Assembly: GCA_031263875.1 (NCBI GenBank)
Contig: JAISEX010000311.1
Location: 1-10,386, forward strand
Direction of reading: 5' to 3'
Length of the DNA: 10,386 nt
From: Eubacteriales Family XIII. Incertae Sedis bacterium
GTDB taxonomy: Bacteria; Bacillota; Clostridia; Peptostreptococcales; Anaerovoracaceae
Made by a program: the position numbers and the translations under genes. Below the pieces are notes generated by a model, which was not told where the DNA came from, made no database searches, and saw nothing but the letters and a program-made list of their open reading frames with translations. This document shows, piece by piece, positions 560-9,754 of this stretch. Position 1 is the stretch's first letter. Each line of letters begins with the position of its first letter.

Positions 560-643
560 AACGTTCGCTACGCTCACTCCTCCGCTCGCGTTGCTCGCTT
601 CGCTGTCCTGTTTTACATTGCGGCTAAAGCCGCGTAAAACAGG
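560..643 (-). repeat. Hairpin repeat B, copy 1 (inverted)
   Basis: Read on the minus strand, this is a 37-nt hairpin followed by a tail rich in GCGAAGCGAG words and ending GCGAACGTTA. The stem is CCTGTTTTAC + GCGGCT, a TT loop, AGCCGC, a 3-nt bulge, then GTAAAACAGG. The same unit occurs in direct orientation at 1584-1670 and 1671-1740. Compared with copy 2, the fourth stem pair changes from A-T to G-C on both sides, so pairing is kept. It is probably a mobile REP-like or MITE-like non-coding element. Confidence 0.7.
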
Positions 644-658
644 CAAAGCTCCTGTACC

Positions 659-831
659 TCTGCCAAGGGATAGGAGGGGTGCGGTAGCAGCCGCGAAGCG
701 GCCGAAGTGAAGCGGAACCCCGGATAGCCCGGTGGGGCACTCAAAAATATAAGGCCATTTTTGTGAGTGCCTGCGTGTAAGACTATCCCGCGGGTTACGC
801 ACAAAATCATTTTGAGCGCCCCATGCGCCCG
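659..831 (-). repeat. Structured repeat C, copy 1 (inverted)
   Basis: The core at 721-831 aligns without gaps over 111 bp to the reverse complement of 9594-9704, with about 87 identities by hand count. Its ends form a 13-bp stem (734-746 with 810-822), GGGGCGCTCAAAA pairing with TTTTGAGTGCCCC when read on the minus strand, with one G-T pair. Weaker similarity continues to about 659 (CTATCCCTTGG on the minus strand). A reading frame stays open through both copies, but differences are spread evenly over codon positions, so I treat it as non-coding structured DNA or RNA. Confidence 0.7.
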
Positions 832-1908: not shown

Positions 1909-2385
1909 ATGAATTTGGTGGTTATTATAGGGAATCTCGCGAGAGATCCGGAAATCAGATATGGCGCGAACAATCTTGCCATCGCGAAATTTACGGTGGC
2001 GGTAAACAGGTTTTCGCGCAAGGGCGGTGATGACCCGGGCGCCGACTTTATTCGCGTTACCGCGTTTGACAAGCAGGCCGAACTTATAGAGAAGTATCTG
2101 TCGAAAGGCAGAAAGGTTGCCGTCGAAGGCCGCATCCAAACCGGCAGTTATGACGGCAAGGATGGCCAGAAGGTCTACACGACGGACGTTATCGCGAACA
2201 GGGTCGAATTCCTGGGCAGCCGCGGAGAAGGCGGCGGTTCGGGAAATTACGGCGACGCGGCGGCTTCCGGCGGTTCGGGATATGCCGCTTCCGGCGGAGC
2301 AGGCCAGAGCAGCGCGCCGCAGAACGCGCCCGGGGACGTGCCCTCGGCGTTTGCGGAAATGGATGACGATGACCTGCCGTTCTAG
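1909..2385 (+). CDS. ssb: Single-stranded DNA-binding protein SSB
   Basis: SSB coats single-stranded DNA at replication forks and recruits repair and replication partners through its C-terminal tip. The 158-residue product has the OB fold at about 1-104 (opening MNLVVIIGNLARDPEIR, with FIRVTAFDKQAELIEKYLSK and VEGRIQTGSY). A Gly/Ser/Ala-rich flexible linker spans about 105-145, and the acidic tip MDDDDLPF is at 151-158, the canonical SSB tail. ATG 1909 follows the ribosome site GAGGAGG with good spacing. rpsR follows 62 bp later, the usual S6-SSB-S18 order. No separate strong promoter was seen, so it probably depends on read-through from rpsF across the repeat array. Confidence 0.97.
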   Translation: MNLVVIIGNLARDPEIRYGANNLAIAKFTVAVNRFSRKGGDDPGADFIRVTAFDKQAELIEKYLSKGRKVAVEGRIQTGSYDGKDGQKVYTTDVIANRVEFLGSRGEGGGSGNYGDAAASGGSGYAASGGAGQSSAPQNAPGDVPSAFAEMDDDDLPF

Positions 2386-2447
2386 TATTATGCTCAAACG
2401 GGCAAGAATTATGCTAACAAGCAACGATAAGGAGTGACAAAGCAATA

Positions 2448-2693
2448 ATGGACAAACCAAGAAAAAGCGGGGGCGGGATGGGCTTACGCCGGAAAAAAGT
2501 ATGCCAGTTCTGCGCCGACAAGAACGCAAAAATTGACTATAAAGATACGGAGTTGTTGTCGAAGTTCGTGACGGAGCGGGGAAAGATCCTGCCGAAACGC
2601 GTGACCGGCACCTGCGCCATCCATCAGCGTGAAATCGCGAACGCCATCAAGCGCGCGCGCATCGTGGCGTTGATGCCGTACATCAAAGACTAA
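2448..2693 (+). CDS. rpsR: 30S ribosomal protein S18
   Basis: S18 pairs with S6 on the 16S rRNA platform. The 81-residue product has the conserved core [20 protein letters not shown] and the ending [19 protein letters not shown]. It holds CQFC (residues 19-22) and TCAIH (about 55-59), giving three cysteines and a histidine that could bind zinc, as in the Cys-containing S18 forms known from many bacteria. ATG 2448 follows AAGGAGTG (2429-2436). rplI begins 18 bp after the stop. In B. subtilis yybS and yybT (gdpP) lie between rpsR and rplI; here there is no room for them. Confidence 0.97.
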
Positions 2694-2711
2694 GACCGAA
2701 AGGGATATACA

Positions 2712-3155
2712 ATGCAAGTAATATTAGTGGAAGACGTAGCGGGCAAAGGCAAGGCCGGCGACGTTGTTAAAGTAGCCGACGGATACGCCCGGAACTATTT
2801 GCTGCCGCGTGGCGTGGCGATTCCCGCGACGGACGCGAACATGAAGTCCATAGAGCACCGCAAGGCGAAGCTGGCCGCGAACCGGGAGCAATCGCTTGCG
2901 GAGGCGCAGGAAACGGCCGAGAAGATCAACAGCCTGAGCGTGACGATCACGTCAAAGTCCGGCGAGGGCGGAAGGCTTTTCGGCTCCATTACCTCGCAGG
3001 ATATTGCGAACGCTGTCAGCGAACAGCACGACGTGTTTATCGACAAGCGCAAAATCTCACTTGACGCACCGATCAAGGCGGTCGGCGTGCATCCCGTGGA
3101 GATAAAGATCTATCCCGAGGTGACCGCGACTATACGGGTTCTCGTCGAAGCCTGA
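2712..3155 (+). CDS. rplI: 50S ribosomal protein L9
   Basis: L9 binds 23S rRNA near the L1 stalk and helps keep the reading frame. The 147-residue product has the family's N-terminal RNA-binding domain (MQVILVEDVAGKGKAGDVV, then DGYARNYLLPRGVA at 23-36). A long connecting helix of about 40-74 and a C-terminal domain with GGRLFGSIT (87-95) follow. Length matches the usual 147-150 residues. The start has a modest GAAAGGGA ribosome site at 2698-2705. It is followed 30 bp later by dnaB, the standard rplI-dnaB pairing of Firmicutes. Confidence 0.97.
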   Translation: MQVILVEDVAGKGKAGDVVKVADGYARNYLLPRGVAIPATDANMKSIEHRKAKLAANREQSLAEAQETAEKINSLSVTITSKSGEGGRLFGSITSQDIANAVSEQHDVFIDKRKISLDAPIKAVGVHPVEIKIYPEVTATIRVLVEA

Positions 3156-3185
3156 CGCGCGGGCGCATACAGGAGCTAGAGGAAT

Positions 3186-4670
3186 ATGGCCGAGAGGATT
3201 CCGCCGCACAGCGACGCTGCCGAGCGTTCGGTGCTCGGCGCGGCGTTGCAGAGCAAGCAGGCGCTTTACGATATGATGGAAACGCTTGACGGTTCCGATT
3301 TCTTCGTGAAAGCGCACGCCTTGATATTTGACGCCATGTACCGGTTGCATAAAACCGGCGCGGCCGTGGATATCATTACGGTTTCCGAAGATTTAGACCG
3401 GAACAAACAGCTTTCCGCCGCGGGCGGACGGGCGTATCTTGGCGAGCTGACGAGCGCGGTGCCGTCGCCGCTGAACGCGATGCAGTATGGCGTGATCATC
3501 AAAGAAAAATCAAAACTGCGAAGGCTTATCGAGCAGTCGGGCGATATTATAACGATGAGTTACGACAGCACCGAACCGGCGAACGACATTCTGAGCAAGG
3601 CGGAAAATAAGATACTGGAGATAGCGCAGAGTTCGCAGGCCCACGAGATCGTTTCGGTGGGCGACGCGATACGCCAGAGTCTTGAGAAGATCCGCGAACA
3701 TTATGAATCGGGGCGCAAGCTGCTCGGCATTACGACGGGCTTCGGCCGGCTCAATAAAATCACGTCGGGTTTTCAGAAACAGGACCTCATTATTCTCGCG
3801 GCGCGGCCCAGTATGGGAAAGACGGCGTTGGCGCTGAATTTCGCGCTGAACGCGGCGATGCGGGAAGACGCGACCATTATGATATTCAGCCTCGAGATGG
3901 GTGAGCAGGCGCTCGCGCAGCGCATACTCAGCATTCTCAGCGAGGTGCCGCTCAGCAATATCCGCGACGGCAGCTTTTCCAACAGCAAGGACGATACGGA
4001 GAAGATAAACAAGGCGCTCGAACGGCTCGGCAAGCTGAATATAGAGATAGACGCGGCGACGGGCAGTTCCATTAACGAGATGAAGAATAAGTGCCGCCGG
4101 CTGAAACAGAAGCTTGGCCTCGATCTCGTTATCGTGGACTATCTGCAGTTGATGTCGCTTTCGGGCTCGGAACGGCTGGATAACAGGACGCTTGAGATAG
4201 CCGCCATTACGCGCATGTTGAAGCTGATGGCGAAGGAGCTCGACTGTCCCGTTATCGTGTTGTCGCAGACGAGCCGCGATTACGAAAAGCGCAGCGGCCG
4301 CCCGATGTTATCGGATCTGCGCGATTCGGGAGCGATAGAGCAGGACGCCGACCTCATTATGTTCATCCATAATAAGTCCTCGAAAGAGCAGGACGATGAC
4401 GACGATGAGTTTCATTACGATCCGGATATCAACCGTATGCTGCTGATATTGAAGCATCGAAACGGGGAAACCGGCGATGTGATATTGCGGTGGATCGGCG
4501 CGTATACGAAATTCGTGGATGTTGAGTTTCGGATGGCGGCGTCACCGTATGAGGTGTCGGGAGATTCGCGCGGGTCGGCGGCGGGCGATGAAGACGGATA
4601 CACGAACGGGGGTGGCGGCGCGGATATTCCCGAGGAAAATTACGCGCCAAAGCCGAAATTACCGTTCTAA
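3186..4670 (+). CDS. dnaB: Replicative DNA helicase DnaB
   Basis: This is the hexameric helicase that unwinds DNA at the fork (named DnaC in B. subtilis). The 494-residue protein has the N-terminal helical domain (about 7-110), a linker helix to about 175, and the RecA-like ATPase domain (about 180-447). Visible motifs are Walker A ARPSMGKT (206-213), the SLEM motif with catalytic Glu237, Walker B VIVDYLQLM with Asp318, SDLRDSGAIEQDAD (376-389), and KHRNG with the likely arginine finger Arg425. An acidic run EQDDDDDEF (401-409) lies in the loop before the last strands. The C-terminal extension (about 455-494) is Gly/acid-rich and ends PKPKLPF, similar in its last three residues to the SSB tip. 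ATG 3186 follows AGGAG. purA starts 24 bp downstream. Confidence 0.97.
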   Translation: MAERIPPHSDAAERSVLGAALQSKQALYDMMETLDGSDFFVKAHALIFDAMYRLHKTGAAVDIITVSEDLDRNKQLSAAGGRAYLGELTSAVPSPLNAMQYGVIIKEKSKLRRLIEQSGDIITMSYDSTEPANDILSKAENKILEIAQSSQAHEIVSVGDAIRQSLEKIREHYESGRKLLGITTGFGRLNKITSGFQKQDLIILAARPSMGKTALALNFALNAAMREDATIMIFSLEMGEQALAQRILSILSEVPLSNIRDGSFSNSKDDTEKINKALERLGKLNIEIDAATGSSINEMKNKCRRLKQKLGLDLVIVDYLQLMSLSGSERLDNRTLEIAAITRMLKLMAKELDCPVIVLSQTSRDYEKRSGRPMLSDLRDSGAIEQDADLIMFIHNKSSKEQDDDDDEFHYDPDINRMLLILKHRNGETGDVILRWIGAYTKFVDVEFRMAASPYEVSGDSRGSAAGDEDGYTNGGGGADIPEENYAPKPKLPF

Positions 4671-4694: not shown

Positions 4695-5966
4695 GTGGCA
4701 AAGACAATAGCAGTTATCGGCTCGCAATGGGGCGATGAGGGAAAAGGCAAAATTATAGACTATCTCGCGACGGGCGCGGATATGGTGGTTCGCGCGCAGG
4801 GCGGGGCGAACGCGGGGCATTCCGTGGTAATAGAGGGCAAGCGGTATTCGCTGCATCTGATACCGTCGGGCGTCCTGAACGACAACGCGGTAAACATTAT
4901 CGGGAACGGGGTCGTTTTCGATCCGCCGGCTTTCCTTGCGGAACTCGATTCGCTGCGCGCGGACGGCGTTGCGGCGGATAAAATCTATATAAGCGACCGC
5001 GCTCACGTGGTTTTTCCGTATCATAAACTTTTGGATAAACTCGCGGAGGAGGCGCGCGGCGCGAACAGTATCGGCACGACGCTGAAGGGCATCGGGCCGT
5101 GTTATATGGACAAGGTGGAGCGCAGCGGCATTCGGATATGCGATATGCTTTCGGCGGGATTCAAGGAGAAACTCGCGGGCCGTATCGCGGCTAAAAACGA
5201 GATCATCGTCAAGCTGTACGGGGGCGAACCGCTTGACGCGGACGCGGTTATCGCGGAATATGAGGCGTATGCCGGCCGGCTTGCGCCCTACGTGCGCGAT
5301 ACGGGCATAATGGTGGACGAGGCGATTTCGTCGGGAAAAACCGTGCTGTTTGAAGGCGCGCAAGGTTCTATGCTCGACCTCGACCTCGGTTCTTATCCCT
5401 ATGTAACGAGCTCCCACCCGGTCTCCGGCGGCTTTGCCGTGGGCGCTGGTATCGGCGAGGGCCGCATCGAGGAGATAATCGGGATCACGAAGGCGTATAC
5501 GACGCGGGTCGGCGAGGGGCCGATGGTGACGGAGCTTTTGGATGGGATGGGCGATTTGATCCGCGAGCGCGGGCACGAATACGGCGTTACGACGGGACGA
5601 CCGCGCCGCTGCGGTTGGTTTGACGGCGTTGTGTGCCGTTACACGGCGAGGATAAACGGCACGACGGGTCTTGCGCTGATGCTGCTTGACGTTCTCGATG
5701 AATTCGACGAGATAAACCTGTGCTATGCGTACGAGGCGGACGGCGAGCGGCTTGACTATTATCCCGCAAGCCTCGAGAAGGTGAGCGCGTGCCGCCCGGT
5801 GTATAAGACTATACGGGGCTGGAAGCGCGATATTTCGGCGGTAACCTCGTGGGACGAGCTGCCGGCCGAGGCGCAGGCTTATGTTTCGGAAGTGGAAAAA
5901 ATCTGCGGTGTGCCGGTGAAATTTATTTCCGTTGGCCCGGGGCGCGAACAGACGATAGTGCGGTAA
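4695..5966 (+). CDS. purA: Adenylosuccinate synthetase
   Basis: PurA joins IMP and aspartate using GTP to form adenylosuccinate, the first committed step from IMP to AMP, in the cytoplasm. The 423-residue product has GSQWGDEGKGKI (9-20, catalytic Asp14), QGGANAGH (35-42, catalytic His42), GTTLKGIGPCYMDK (127-140), EGAQGSMLDLDLGSYPYVTS (220-239), TTGRPRRCGWFD (299-310), and VGPGREQTI near the C-terminus. Length is normal. I prefer GTG 4695 because AAAGGGG (4680-4686) lies 8 nt upstream and the protein then begins VAKTIAVIG; an in-frame TTG at 4674 has no ribosome site. It ends 1 nt before the next start, so translation is probably coupled. purA near dnaB and walRK is the B. subtilis arrangement. 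Confidence 0.96.
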   Translation: MAKTIAVIGSQWGDEGKGKIIDYLATGADMVVRAQGGANAGHSVVIEGKRYSLHLIPSGVLNDNAVNIIGNGVVFDPPAFLAELDSLRADGVAADKIYISDRAHVVFPYHKLLDKLAEEARGANSIGTTLKGIGPCYMDKVERSGIRICDMLSAGFKEKLAGRIAAKNEIIVKLYGGEPLDADAVIAEYEAYAGRLAPYVRDTGIMVDEAISSGKTVLFEGAQGSMLDLDLGSYPYVTSSHPVSGGFAVGAGIGEGRIEEIIGITKAYTTRVGEGPMVTELLDGMGDLIRERGHEYGVTTGRPRRCGWFDGVVCRYTARINGTTGLALMLLDVLDEFDEINLCYAYEADGERLDYYPASLEKVSACRPVYKTIRGWKRDISAVTSWDELPAEAQAYVSEVEKICGVPVKFISVGPGREQTIVR

Positions 5967-5967
5967 C

Positions 5968-7218
5968 GTGAGAATCTATACGTATGAAACGATAAATACG
6001 CTGCTCGAAGATACGTGCGTTCCGAATATATTTCTTGAGCTGTATCTTCCGCATCTGTCCGGCGACTGCGTGCGGGTCTATCTCTATGCGTGGACGAACG
6101 CGCGGCGGGGGCAGGTTTTTTCAAACGAGGGCATTGCGGACAAACTCGGCATACCGGTCGAGGCGGTGCTTTCCGCGTGGACGGAGCTTGAAAGCGAGGC
6201 GGTAGTCCGCAAGATTTTTCATAATGAGCATGACAAGCTGAGTTTCGATATAGAGTTTGCGGATTTAAAAGGGAGCATGTTCGCTCCGGAGGCAAAGTCT
6301 GCGCGGACGAAGCGCCCGTCGGACAAGGCGGCGGCGCGCCGTCTGAGCGACGCCGGCGTCAAAGACCTGTTCCGCGAGATCGAAAAAATAATAGGGCGGC
6401 CGTTTCCCGCCGGCGACTATCAGAAGGTGGCCGAGCTTTTGACGGAATTCGAGGCCAGCGCCGAGTTGGTGGCGCGGGCGTACGGCTATTGCATGGATCG
6501 CGGGCGCAATCCGTCGGCGGCGTATGTGCGCGAGATAATCCGGGAGTGGACGGGCAAGGGTATCCGGACCGCGAAGGAAGCTGACGACCATATTGAGGTC
6601 GTCGATATGCGTTTCGGGATATACCGGAAGATAATGCGGGCGTTGGGGCTTTCGCCGCAGGCGCTCACGGAAGCGGAGAAGCGCGTGTTCGACGTGTGGC
6701 TCGACGACTATACGATGAGCGCTGACGAGATACTGGAGGTAACCCAGAAGGCCGCGGGAAAACAAAATAAGTTTGACTATGTGAAGAAGATCATCGAAAA
6801 TAACCGGGCGCGCGCGGGCAGAAGCGGCGGCGCCGCTTCTGCTAGCGCCGCGATGACCGGCCGCAAGAAATACTATGCCGAGAAGCGCAGACGGAACGAA
6901 GAAGGCGCGGAGCAAAGGCGGGCGGAGGTCATCGCGGCGCTTCCCCGCGTCCCGGAACTGGAAGCGGGCATCAGCCGCCTGAATATGGAGCTGGCGTCGC
7001 TTGCCCTGTCGTCATTGCCCGGCAGGGACGCGGAGGCCGCGCGCTTATCTGCGGAAATCGACCGGCTGATAGCCGAAAAGGAAAAGGTGATGTCGTCAGC
7101 CGGCTTCGCCCCCGACTATATGGATATTCACTATACGTGTGATTTGTGCCGGGATACGGGCACACTCGACAACGGAACCTCCTGCAGATGTTTTGAAACC
7201 GCCGCCGTTTCCGAATGA
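5968..7218 (+). CDS. DnaD-domain primosomal protein fused to a DnaC-type zinc region
   Basis: The 416-residue product is a likely helicase-loading factor with an unusual end. Residues about 18-100 look like the winged-helix N-terminal domain of DnaD/DnaB-type primosomal proteins (YLPHLSGDCVRVYLYAW, then NEGIADKLGIP). Two DnaD (DDBH2) domains follow: about 127-205 with AYVREIIREW and about 213-285 with DYVKKIIENNR. After a Gly/Ala/Ser linker (285-298), residues about 300-410 match the N-terminal part of Firmicutes DnaC/DnaI-like helicase loaders: KYYAEKRRRNEE, a coiled coil, then APDYMDIHYTCDLCRDTG and CRCF with Cys391, 394, 406 and 408 as likely zinc ligands. The AAA+ ATPase that should follow is absent; the protein stops eight residues after the last cysteine. 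GTG 5968 lies 1 nt after the purA stop, without a clear ribosome site, suggesting coupled translation. The function is inferred from domains. Confidence 0.88.
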   Translation: MRIYTYETINTLLEDTCVPNIFLELYLPHLSGDCVRVYLYAWTNARRGQVFSNEGIADKLGIPVEAVLSAWTELESEAVVRKIFHNEHDKLSFDIEFADLKGSMFAPEAKSARTKRPSDKAAARRLSDAGVKDLFREIEKIIGRPFPAGDYQKVAELLTEFEASAELVARAYGYCMDRGRNPSAAYVREIIREWTGKGIRTAKEADDHIEVVDMRFGIYRKIMRALGLSPQALTEAEKRVFDVWLDDYTMSADEILEVTQKAAGKQNKFDYVKKIIENNRARAGRSGGAASASAAMTGRKKYYAEKRRRNEEGAEQRRAEVIAALPRVPELEAGISRLNMELASLALSSLPGRDAEAARLSAEIDRLIAEKEKVMSSAGFAPDYMDIHYTCDLCRDTGTLDNGTSCRCFETAAVSE

Positions 7219-7441
7219 ATTCTTGCGTTTATTGTGATAATATAGTAAAGGGCATTTCTAAAAACTTTTGCCGTGCCGCCGTGCCGCGTATTTCGCCGCA
7301 TTGCGCGGGTTCGGAATCGTGCGATAGCGCCGCTATTCCTGCGTTCCGGGCCAGTACACAGCAGAACTTTACAGCAATTCCACCGAGCCACCGTTTTTAG
7401 CGGCGCCCGAAAAAGAGCTTATCGCGAGAGGAAGGCATATT
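7219..7441 (+). promoter_or_regulatory. Spacer before walR with a possible promoter
   Basis: A TGATAATAT stretch (7235-7243) resembles an extended -10 site, but no good -35 lies at 16 to 18 bp, so the promoter call is weak. I looked in all forward frames for the missing AAA+ half of the preceding gene and saw no Walker motif or other trace. Small palindromes occur (ATAGCG/CGCTAT around 7323-7335). The walR ribosome site GAGAGGAAGG lies just before the ATG. A 61-codon ORF from 7215 has no ribosome site and was not called. Confidence 0.35.
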
Positions 7442-8140
7442 ATGGACGCGAGAAAAGTACTCATTATTGAAGACGAGAAGGCTATATCCGATATAGTCAA
7501 ATTTAATCTTACAAAAGAAGGGTTTGCGACGGACACGGCCTTTGACGGCAAGGAGGGGCTGGACAAGGCGCTTGCCACGGATCCCGACCTTGTGCTTCTC
7601 GACGTGATGCTGCCGTCGATGGATGGTTTTGAGGTCTGCCGCAAGCTGCGCGAAAAGAGCAACGTGCCTATCATTATGCTGACCGCCAAGGAGGAAGAAG
7701 TGGACAAAGTGCTCGGGCTTGAACTCGGCGCCGACGATTACATCACGAAACCCTTCGGACTGCGGGAGCTGATAGCGCGCATCAAGGCGAATATCCGCAG
7801 AATGCAGGAGCCGCCGGCCGCGGAAACGAACTCCGCGGGCATTCAGGACTTCGGCAGCTTGGCGATAGATATGGATCGTTATGAAGTGCGCAAAAAAGGC
7901 GTCGCGCTTGAACTGACGCTGCGGGAATTTGAACTGCTGAAATACCTCGCCGAGCGTGAGGACAAAGTATTCTCCCGCGAGCAACTGCTCGAGGACGTGT
8001 GGGGATACGAATATTACGGAGATATACGGACGGTGGACGTAACGGTTCGCCGCCTGCGCGAAAAGTTGGAGGACGACCCCGGAAACCCGAAATACATTAT
8101 GACCAAACGGGGCGTCGGCTACTATTTCAGGAGGTCTTAA
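7442..8140 (+). CDS. walR: OmpR-family response regulator, WalR-like
   Basis: It is a DNA-binding response regulator, probably the partner of the kinase encoded next. The 232-residue product has a receiver domain (about 4-118) with acidic pocket EDE (10-12), phospho-acceptor Asp54 in VLLDVMLP, Thr81 in IIMLTA, and Lys103 in TKPF. The OmpR-type winged helix (about 133-230) shows LTLREFELLKYLA, SREQLLEDVWGYEYYGD, RTVDVTVRRLREKLE, and the ending TKRGVGYYF. The VWGYEYYGDIRTVDV segment is typical of WalR (YycF). Position after dnaB and purA supports WalR, the essential regulator of cell-wall hydrolases in low-GC Gram-positives. PhoP-like regulators are similar, so the exact name rests partly on synteny. 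The kinase start lies 3 nt after the stop. Confidence 0.88.
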   Translation: MDARKVLIIEDEKAISDIVKFNLTKEGFATDTAFDGKEGLDKALATDPDLVLLDVMLPSMDGFEVCRKLREKSNVPIIMLTAKEEEVDKVLGLELGADDYITKPFGLRELIARIKANIRRMQEPPAAETNSAGIQDFGSLAIDMDRYEVRKKGVALELTLREFELLKYLAEREDKVFSREQLLEDVWGYEYYGDIRTVDVTVRRLREKLEDDPGNPKYIMTKRGVGYYFRRS

Positions 8141-9593: not shown

Positions 9594-9754
9594 CGGGCGC
9601 ATGGGACACTCAAAACGAGTTTGCCACTAACCCGTGGGACAATTCTATGCGTGCGCATTTACAAAAACGGTCTTTTATTTTTGAGTGTCCCACCGGGCTA
9701 TCCGCTTGTATCTTTTTCGCCTGCGGCGAAAAAGTATACCGCTGCTATCCCTTG
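9594..9754 (+). repeat. Structured repeat C, copy 2
   Basis: The first 111 bp (9594-9704) are the gapless inverted counterpart of 721-831. A perfect 13-bp stem, GGGACACTCAAAA (9603-9615) with TTTTGAGTGTCCC (9679-9691), closes it. Relative to copy 1 one stem pair changes from G-C to A-T on both sides, keeping pairing. The downstream GCTATCCCTTG (9744-9754) is also shared. Between them sits a perfect 10-bp hairpin (CTTTTTCGCC 9712-9721, TGC loop, GGCGAAAAAG 9725-9734) that differs from the hairpin-forming insert at that place in copy 1. It starts 28 bp after the walK stop. No run of T follows the stem, so a terminator role is possible but not typical. Confidence 0.7.

Follow-up and report, generated by a model that had tools for sequence, protein, structure and literature searches.

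The window, i.e. the whole stretch of 10,386 nucleotides that was analysed, carries rpsF, ssb, rpsR, rplI, dnaB and purA, followed by the fusion ORF and the genes of a response regulator and a histidine kinase (Table 1). The names rpsF, ssb and rpsR are presumed from the translations. The fusion ORF opens with GTG one base past the end of purA, and this start is credible because a same-genus relative (L018) has ATG at the corresponding place. An internal start at ATG 6853, which would make a free zinc domain, was considered and rejected, as this ATG is not conserved.

Interspersed intergenic repeats were also seen in the window (560-831, 1576-1727 and 9594-9704). A 65-nt unit occurs twice with a start-to-start distance of 87 nt (94 % identical), and there are inverted 53-nt copies (91-92 %). 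Two further inverted copies of 111 nt (78 %) are separated by 8.8 kb. They are possibly a REP- or MITE-like element.

Table 1 Features of the fusion gene and its neighbours in the window
Feature	Position	Strand	Remarks
Replicative helicase gene dnaB, presumed partner	3186..4670	+	Pfam DnaB and DnaB_C
purA	4698-5966		between dnaB and the fusion gene; Pfam Adenylsucc_synt
Fusion gene, DnaD joined to loader N-terminus	5968..7218	+	GTG start, 416 aa
N-terminal winged helix, DnaD N-domain-like	6007..6291	+	residues about 14-108
First DnaD (DnaB_2) domain	6370..6591	+	residues 135-208; Y186...W194 motif
Second DnaD domain	6595..6822	+	residues about 210-285; approximate limits from model helices
Helical part, former loader N-terminus	6868..7101	+	residues 301-378; presumed helicase-binding
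Four-cysteine motif C391-x2-C394 ... C406-x-C408	7132..7197	+	residues 389-410; presumed zinc site
Intergenic stretch, 223 bp	7219..7441	.	no trace of AAA+ ATPase (tblastn)
Response regulator gene	7442-8140		next gene 3' of the fusion gene

Architecture of the fusion protein

The fusion protein begins with a DnaD-type winged helix and ends with a region of the kind found at the N-terminus of loaders, helical and with the pattern C-x2-C...C-x-C. The DnaB_2/DnaD domain was recognised in two profile searches (68.3 bits against a cut-off of 22, and 42.6 against 24.95). Pfam gives two stretches in the DnaD-domain region and the helices of the second domain are seen in the structure model; G227, E237, W244 and Y271 of this domain were invariant in an alignment of 55 sequences (A3). 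Residues 301-415 matched positions 11-124 of NF005304 (PRK06835), the 330-position profile of the clostridial DnaC-like helicase loader (E 1.3e-21), and a profile-profile comparison of the same residues with the loader gave E 9e-38 and an hhalign probability of 99.95. The fusion scored 77 bits against the NF005304 cut-off of 215, its frame stopping at profile position 124 of 330. It terminates where the AAA+ ATPase of a loader would start, 8 residues beyond the last cysteine, and neither Walker A nor Walker B of an AAA+ ATPase is present in the frame. No AAA+ remnant was found in the 223 bp 3' of the gene by tblastn with the AAA+ parts of 30 loaders.

The first-pass annotation, made from the DNA letters of the window, had described a winged helix and two DnaD domains joined to the four-cysteine zinc region of a loader, with the AAA+ domain absent and no trace of the ATPase in the downstream 223 bp. 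All of this was confirmed by the domain, Pfam and profile matches, the frame end and the tblastn search, and the assumed resemblance of the C-terminal residues to loader N-termini was borne out by both profile comparisons. The fusion can be described as a DnaC-type loader cut to its presumed helicase-binding part and attached to a DnaD; it lacks the AAA+ feature which defines the loader family.

The four cysteines, D396 and G398 were invariant in three alignments (A1, 30 sequences; A3, 55; A4, 40), as were their counterparts in 16 full loaders. The invariant set common to fusion C-termini and full loaders consists of Pro, the four Cys, Asp and Gly, and therefore the same constraint appears to act on both. 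The model of residues 300-416 had a mean pLDDT of 92.9. A fold search with it gave no loader and no DnaI chain among the matches listed, and a profile of fusion C-termini found no loader among the PDB sequences. Close matches in the databases are named only as DnaD-type ('DnaD domain protein', 'DnaD/phage-associated family protein' or similar) or as hypothetical proteins.

Spread in the family and loss of the loader ATPase

In a 61-genome sample, 36 of the 37 genomes of the window's family (f1) carried the fusion, each match extending to at least residue 409 of the query, and so did both genomes of family f9. The f1 genome without any fusion match was G026 (80 % complete); G088, G119, G080 and G085 (60-89 % complete) were likewise without one. 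Two copies lacking the N-terminal third (G012 and G023) are apparently at contig starts, and in G066 the protein is split in two pieces on two contigs. Among the 22 other genomes of the order, DnaD and the loader N-terminus were separate matches in 20, the exceptions having DnaD only (G056) or the loader only (G054). All of 30 fusion proteins compared (28 from f1, 2 from f9) stop soon after the four invariant cysteines. In named records the motif was present in 80 of 80 proteins (the best 80 of 161 relatives; 411-435 aa), with tails of 7-24 aa after it; the stop was seen in 79 and the remaining one (L069) runs off its contig. The frame does not continue into an AAA+ domain in the related genomes, in agreement with the truncation described in the first-pass annotation.

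Carriers include Sinanaerobacter chloroacetimidivorans, Anaerovorax odorimutans, Bacilliculturomica massiliensis, Emergencia timonensis and Clostridium aminobutyricum, and the first four genera are placed in Anaerovoracaceae by the NCBI taxonomy. The Anaerovorax and Emergencia carriers are cultured bacteria. Three close database matches are labelled Clostridiales Family XIII, the older name of Anaerovoracaceae. The fusion is a trait of the whole family.

Some side observations were made on the matches. In the single-contig genome G510 the fusion lies over three frames of 63, 286 and 140 aa (G510:C1:1528666-1529941), the breaks probably being sequencing errors. In some genomes the profile match extends beyond the stop codon, e.g. 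to position 149 in G064 and to 157 in G111 (2 stops each). In G112, which bears the fusion, the loader N-terminus is also matched weakly at another place (G112:C1:687785-688045, profile 11-90), in a 384-aa frame. As regards a phage origin, tblastn of the fusion against 50,697 phage records gave 8 weak matches, which were not taken as evidence: all are unannotated 'Bacteriophage sp.' from human faeces, five of the eight are in two pieces, and one such record that was opened is marked UNVERIFIED.

A loader exceeding the NF005304 cut-off was found in none of 99 f1 genomes (98 with some match), nor in any of a set of 46 composed of 45 f1 genomes at least 97 % complete and the window's own. In the order sample the count was likewise zero in 25 f1 and 3 f9 genomes; in the other families 115 of 120 genomes exceeded the cut-off (the 3 fusion-bearing f9 genomes left out), and among Clostridia at large 240 of 293. 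These zeros alone are no proof of loss, because the cut-off misses some complete loaders, such as those of family f15, which score 147-195 bits. No match in the 46 f1 genomes spanned the zinc part through AAA+, the nearest being a 285-aa ORF in G095 (profile 52-308). The zinc part was present in 45 of the 46; G066 has it on a separate contig. At the sensitivity used, the loader AAA+ ATPase has been lost from f1 genomes.

Besides the fusion, the window's own genome gave only weak P-loop matches to NF005304. A 324-aa frame on contig C292 gave one PF01695 match that just reached the cut-off (profile 76-118, 24.1 bits); the remaining ones were sub-threshold. A separate loader ATPase elsewhere in this genome (67.8 % complete, 319 contigs) was rejected on the PF01695 and NF005304 results. 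DciA as a replacement of the loader was also rejected, since no PF05258 match exceeded the cut-off in 18 genomes, 12 of them from f1, the control being matched in 7 of 14; one sub-threshold match was seen (E 0.53, G044).

Other clostridial lineages and the tail of separate DnaDs

In the class sample 29 genomes had no loader match at E 1e-30. Twenty of these were listed, 16 of them outside f1, and 14 of the 16 were examined with the fusion profile. Truncated fusions, in which DnaD is followed by the zinc part and no AAA+ domain comes next, were found in both examined genomes of f42 (L152, L153), in two of the three of f68 (L154, L155) and in G304 of f15 (L156). No loader elsewhere in these genomes was among the NF005304 matches listed, G280 having one 158-aa fragment (E 6e-7). 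The third f68 genome, G370, has a 472-aa DnaD without the zinc part (L157; C7, 2393-3811, reverse strand) and no loader-like match among the matches listed; this is a possible next step of the reduction. Family f45 had divergent separate loaders or no match (G346). At L158 in G271 of f45 (reverse strand, 2270-4406) the DnaD adjoins a separate loader, divergent and about 300 aa long, which is below the NF005304 threshold used for the class sample. Six of the 20 genomes listed from that sample as having no strong match belong to genus g200. G337 and G243 did not match the fusion profile, G345 was cut by a contig end, and G343 had a 310-aa DnaD with no loader adjoining in the 3.7 kb read.

Three genomes of the same genus as G304 (G230, G260 and G355) have a separate dnaD and a complete loader gene 9 bp apart. 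With G322 of the same family included, the DnaDs are 479-484 aa, the loaders 302-309 aa with Walker A at 166-171, and the gaps 9-10 bp. The DnaDs of these four genomes end in 'QSIDE(I/V)EL' or similar, and the G304 fusion ends, beyond its zinc part, in 'IQSIDEVQL'. Thus the loader domain lies inside the DnaD tail in G304, a joint which differs from that of f1.

A tree of 56 rows was made from 30 separate pairs, 21 of the 30 fusions compared above and 5 further ones. On it the fusion label required four changes, all forced by starred branches, and f1 and f9 formed one clade. A single clade of all fusions was rejected (AU p 2e-74). The p of 0.010 for f68 and G304 as a group is weak, because the group was named after the tree had been seen. 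The tree was made by a quick method, several of its branches are long and some rows have an unusual composition, so exact placements should be read with caution. The count alone does not tell gains from losses; the four changes are read as gains because the return of a separate ATPase gene would be less likely. The fusion thus appears to have arisen repeatedly, by the tree four times, f42, f68 and G304 being three lineages beyond f1/f9, the last with its change inside one genus.

Separate DnaDs have a C-terminal motif, FHN(F/L)...Y(S/T)xEELE (e.g. L161, L159 and L179, each with a separate loader). Its Y(S/T)xEELE half was present in 19 of 30 separate DnaDs (17 of 19 in the order) compared with 0.47 of 30 in shuffled sequences, and in none of 100 distinct fusions, for which shuffling gave 2.7 of 100. 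Of the 30 separate DnaDs, 16 had the FHNF-like half, which was likewise absent from all 100 fusions. One pattern, written after the tails had been seen, was used for both groups; the last 60 residues of separate DnaDs and residue 271 to the end of fusions were scanned, and shuffles were therefore added. The table of separate genes was intended for 32 loci, of which L195 and L158 gave no pair and were dropped. B. subtilis DnaB is also a DnaD-domain protein. Its C-terminal tail binds the AAA+ part of DnaI, as stated in available passages of PMC13326638. By analogy, the clostridial motif is probably a dock for the AAA+ part of the loader, useless after the fusion, and the DnaD tail which presumably holds that part would have lapsed with it. 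The remnant of a DnaD tail in G304, where there is no AAA+ part, argues against a strict link between tail and ATPase.

A possible route of helicase loading without a loader ATPase

We consider it likely that DnaD delivers the replicative helicase by means of a helicase-binding domain joined covalently to it, no loader ATPase being involved. In B. subtilis, DnaD is recruited by DnaA at the origin. The DnaD part of the fusion would dock on DnaA and the opened oriC DNA and its helical/zinc part would grip the replicative helicase, which may then open or assemble on single-stranded DNA with no ATP turnover by a loader. Most likely the fusion recruits the helicase directly; its binding, its loading and the independence from ATP are steps that we infer.

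When separated from the ATPase, the helicase-binding domain of E. coli DnaC still stimulates unwinding and can load DnaB, reaching about half of the wild-type level (passages of PMC8213410); according to the same passages the AAA+ part raises the loading efficiency, which counts against the proposed mechanism. Walker mutants of the C. difficile loader deliver the helicase and fail to lock it, and the authors suggest that delivery does not require the loader to use ATP (PMC5204125, in part). The full-length C. difficile loader binds the replicative helicase, the interacting part not being mapped in the passages available (PMC5204125). DnaI contacts the C-terminal domain of the helicase through its N-terminal zinc domain, and in the DnaI-helicase crystal the N-terminal and AAA+ parts both touch the helicase, which again counts against the proposal (PMC3791466, in excerpts). 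Other loaders bind the helicase at its LH-DH module, which for DnaI is a prediction (PMC9912922). Taken together, the literature on DnaC, the C. difficile loader and DnaI makes an ATPase-free DnaD that grips the helicase by itself a plausible complete loader, and the fusion plausibly works as one.

It is also conceivable, though rather unlikely, that the fusion only recruits the helicase and that an AAA+ protein in trans, most plausibly DnaA, or a mobile-element loader of the IstB or phage DnaC type, opens or threads the ring. DnaA-length AAA+ matches occurred in most genomes listed, and 21 of the 46 f1 genomes had a loader-like AAA+ ORF of 157-297 aa (E 1e-8), which, like the weaker ones of G002 and G062 (E 1.1e-7 and 5e-6), could help in trans. 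However, the other 25 genomes, to which G002 and G062 belong together with the single-contig genomes G118, G112 and G510, had no AAA+ match at E 1e-8 except DnaA-length ones. Where a genome had more than 36 first-look AAA+ candidates, 36 were scored; in G118, G112 and G106, all candidates of which were scored, no loader-like AAA+ was among the matches listed to about E 0.01. Moreover, the loader-like ORF differs between congeners (present in G011 and not in G118, present in G107 and not in G178), as expected of mobile genes. The first-pass annotation had left it between an ATPase acting in trans and one that is not needed; with a loader over the cut-off in none of the 46 genomes and only DnaA-length AAA+ matches at E 1e-8 in 25, the balance leans to the latter. 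Delivery by DnaD with its own helicase grip thus remains preferred, and a divergent AAA+ partner, or DnaA itself, may act with the fusion.

There is very little probability that the truncated loader part is a leftover structural tail and that the helicase loads itself or is loaded by another factor. Some relatives may do without the zinc part and loader, as G370 has no zinc part and no loader-like match among those listed, and the C. difficile helicase was partly active without a loader in vitro (passages of PMC5204125), but the four Cys together with Asp and Gly do not vary among sequences that are otherwise ~30 % identical, and four lineages retained the same part. An artefact of assembly or annotation, in which the contig lost the ATPase through a deletion or misjoin, can practically be dismissed despite the fragmented genome of the window, because relatives from many assemblies, isolates included, have the same end point (79 of 80), and because 36 of 37 f1 genomes and 80 of 80 named-record relatives carry the fusion. 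Overall, the interpretation in the first-pass annotation is supported, the contact with the helicase being the part that we infer.

Compared to the clostridial DnaC-like loader (NF005304/PRK06835), with which it shares the helices and CxxC...CxC of loader positions 11-124, the fusion has no AAA+ domain, is joined to DnaD and comes without a second gene. C. difficile CD3654 is probably a loader of this kind, judging by the adjoining dnaD-like CD3653 (PMC5204125, in part). Firmicutes DnaDs (B. subtilis, S. mutans) have the winged helix and DnaD domains in common with the fusion, whereas the fusion has a loader domain and lacks the tail motif of separate clostridial DnaDs. B. subtilis DnaI is a two-part loader with an N-terminal zinc domain (PMC3791466, in passages); unlike the fusion it has an ATPase and is a separate protein. 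In comparison of DnaI with full clostridial loaders only the first CxxC aligned, weakly, and the DnaI-type N-domain is reported in the same passages not to be homologous to that of DnaC (PMC3791466). Helicase loading that needs no loader ATPase is described for DciA and for the helicase-binding domain of DnaC on its own (PMC8213410, in part); the search of 18 genomes gave no DciA above the cut-off. Loaders of DopE and lambda-P type are named in the passages of PMC13326638. Among the papers listed, none describes a DnaD-loader fusion in its title or the opening of its abstract.

A 2016 survey sorted bacteria into users of DnaC/I or DciA, with a few species having neither, and held that outside two orders dnaC/I, where found, was present in every species of the order, class or phylum (PMC5109545, in the passages available). 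Family f1 would be an exception to this all-species rule, and the fusion is a class missing from surveys that sort users of DnaC/I and DciA. The lost tail motif predicts where DnaD docks the AAA+ part of the loader.

Whether the loader ATPase is essential or only a regulator is a question raised in vitro with E. coli DnaC and the C. difficile loader. Nature has apparently done this deletion of the ATPase several times, in cultivable bacteria as well, retaining the part thought to be sufficient. The fusion provides a minimal loader to reconstitute, which would allow a test of whether the loader motor is needed at all. On balance we lean towards the view that Clostridia have repeatedly made an ATPase-free loader by fusing the helicase-binding domain to DnaD, with DnaD then being the loader at oriC, with no dedicated loader ATPase and no DciA. 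An entire bacterial family, living in the gut and in the environment, appears to have discarded the ATPase motor of its loader and to have attached the rest, presumed to grip the helicase, to DnaD.
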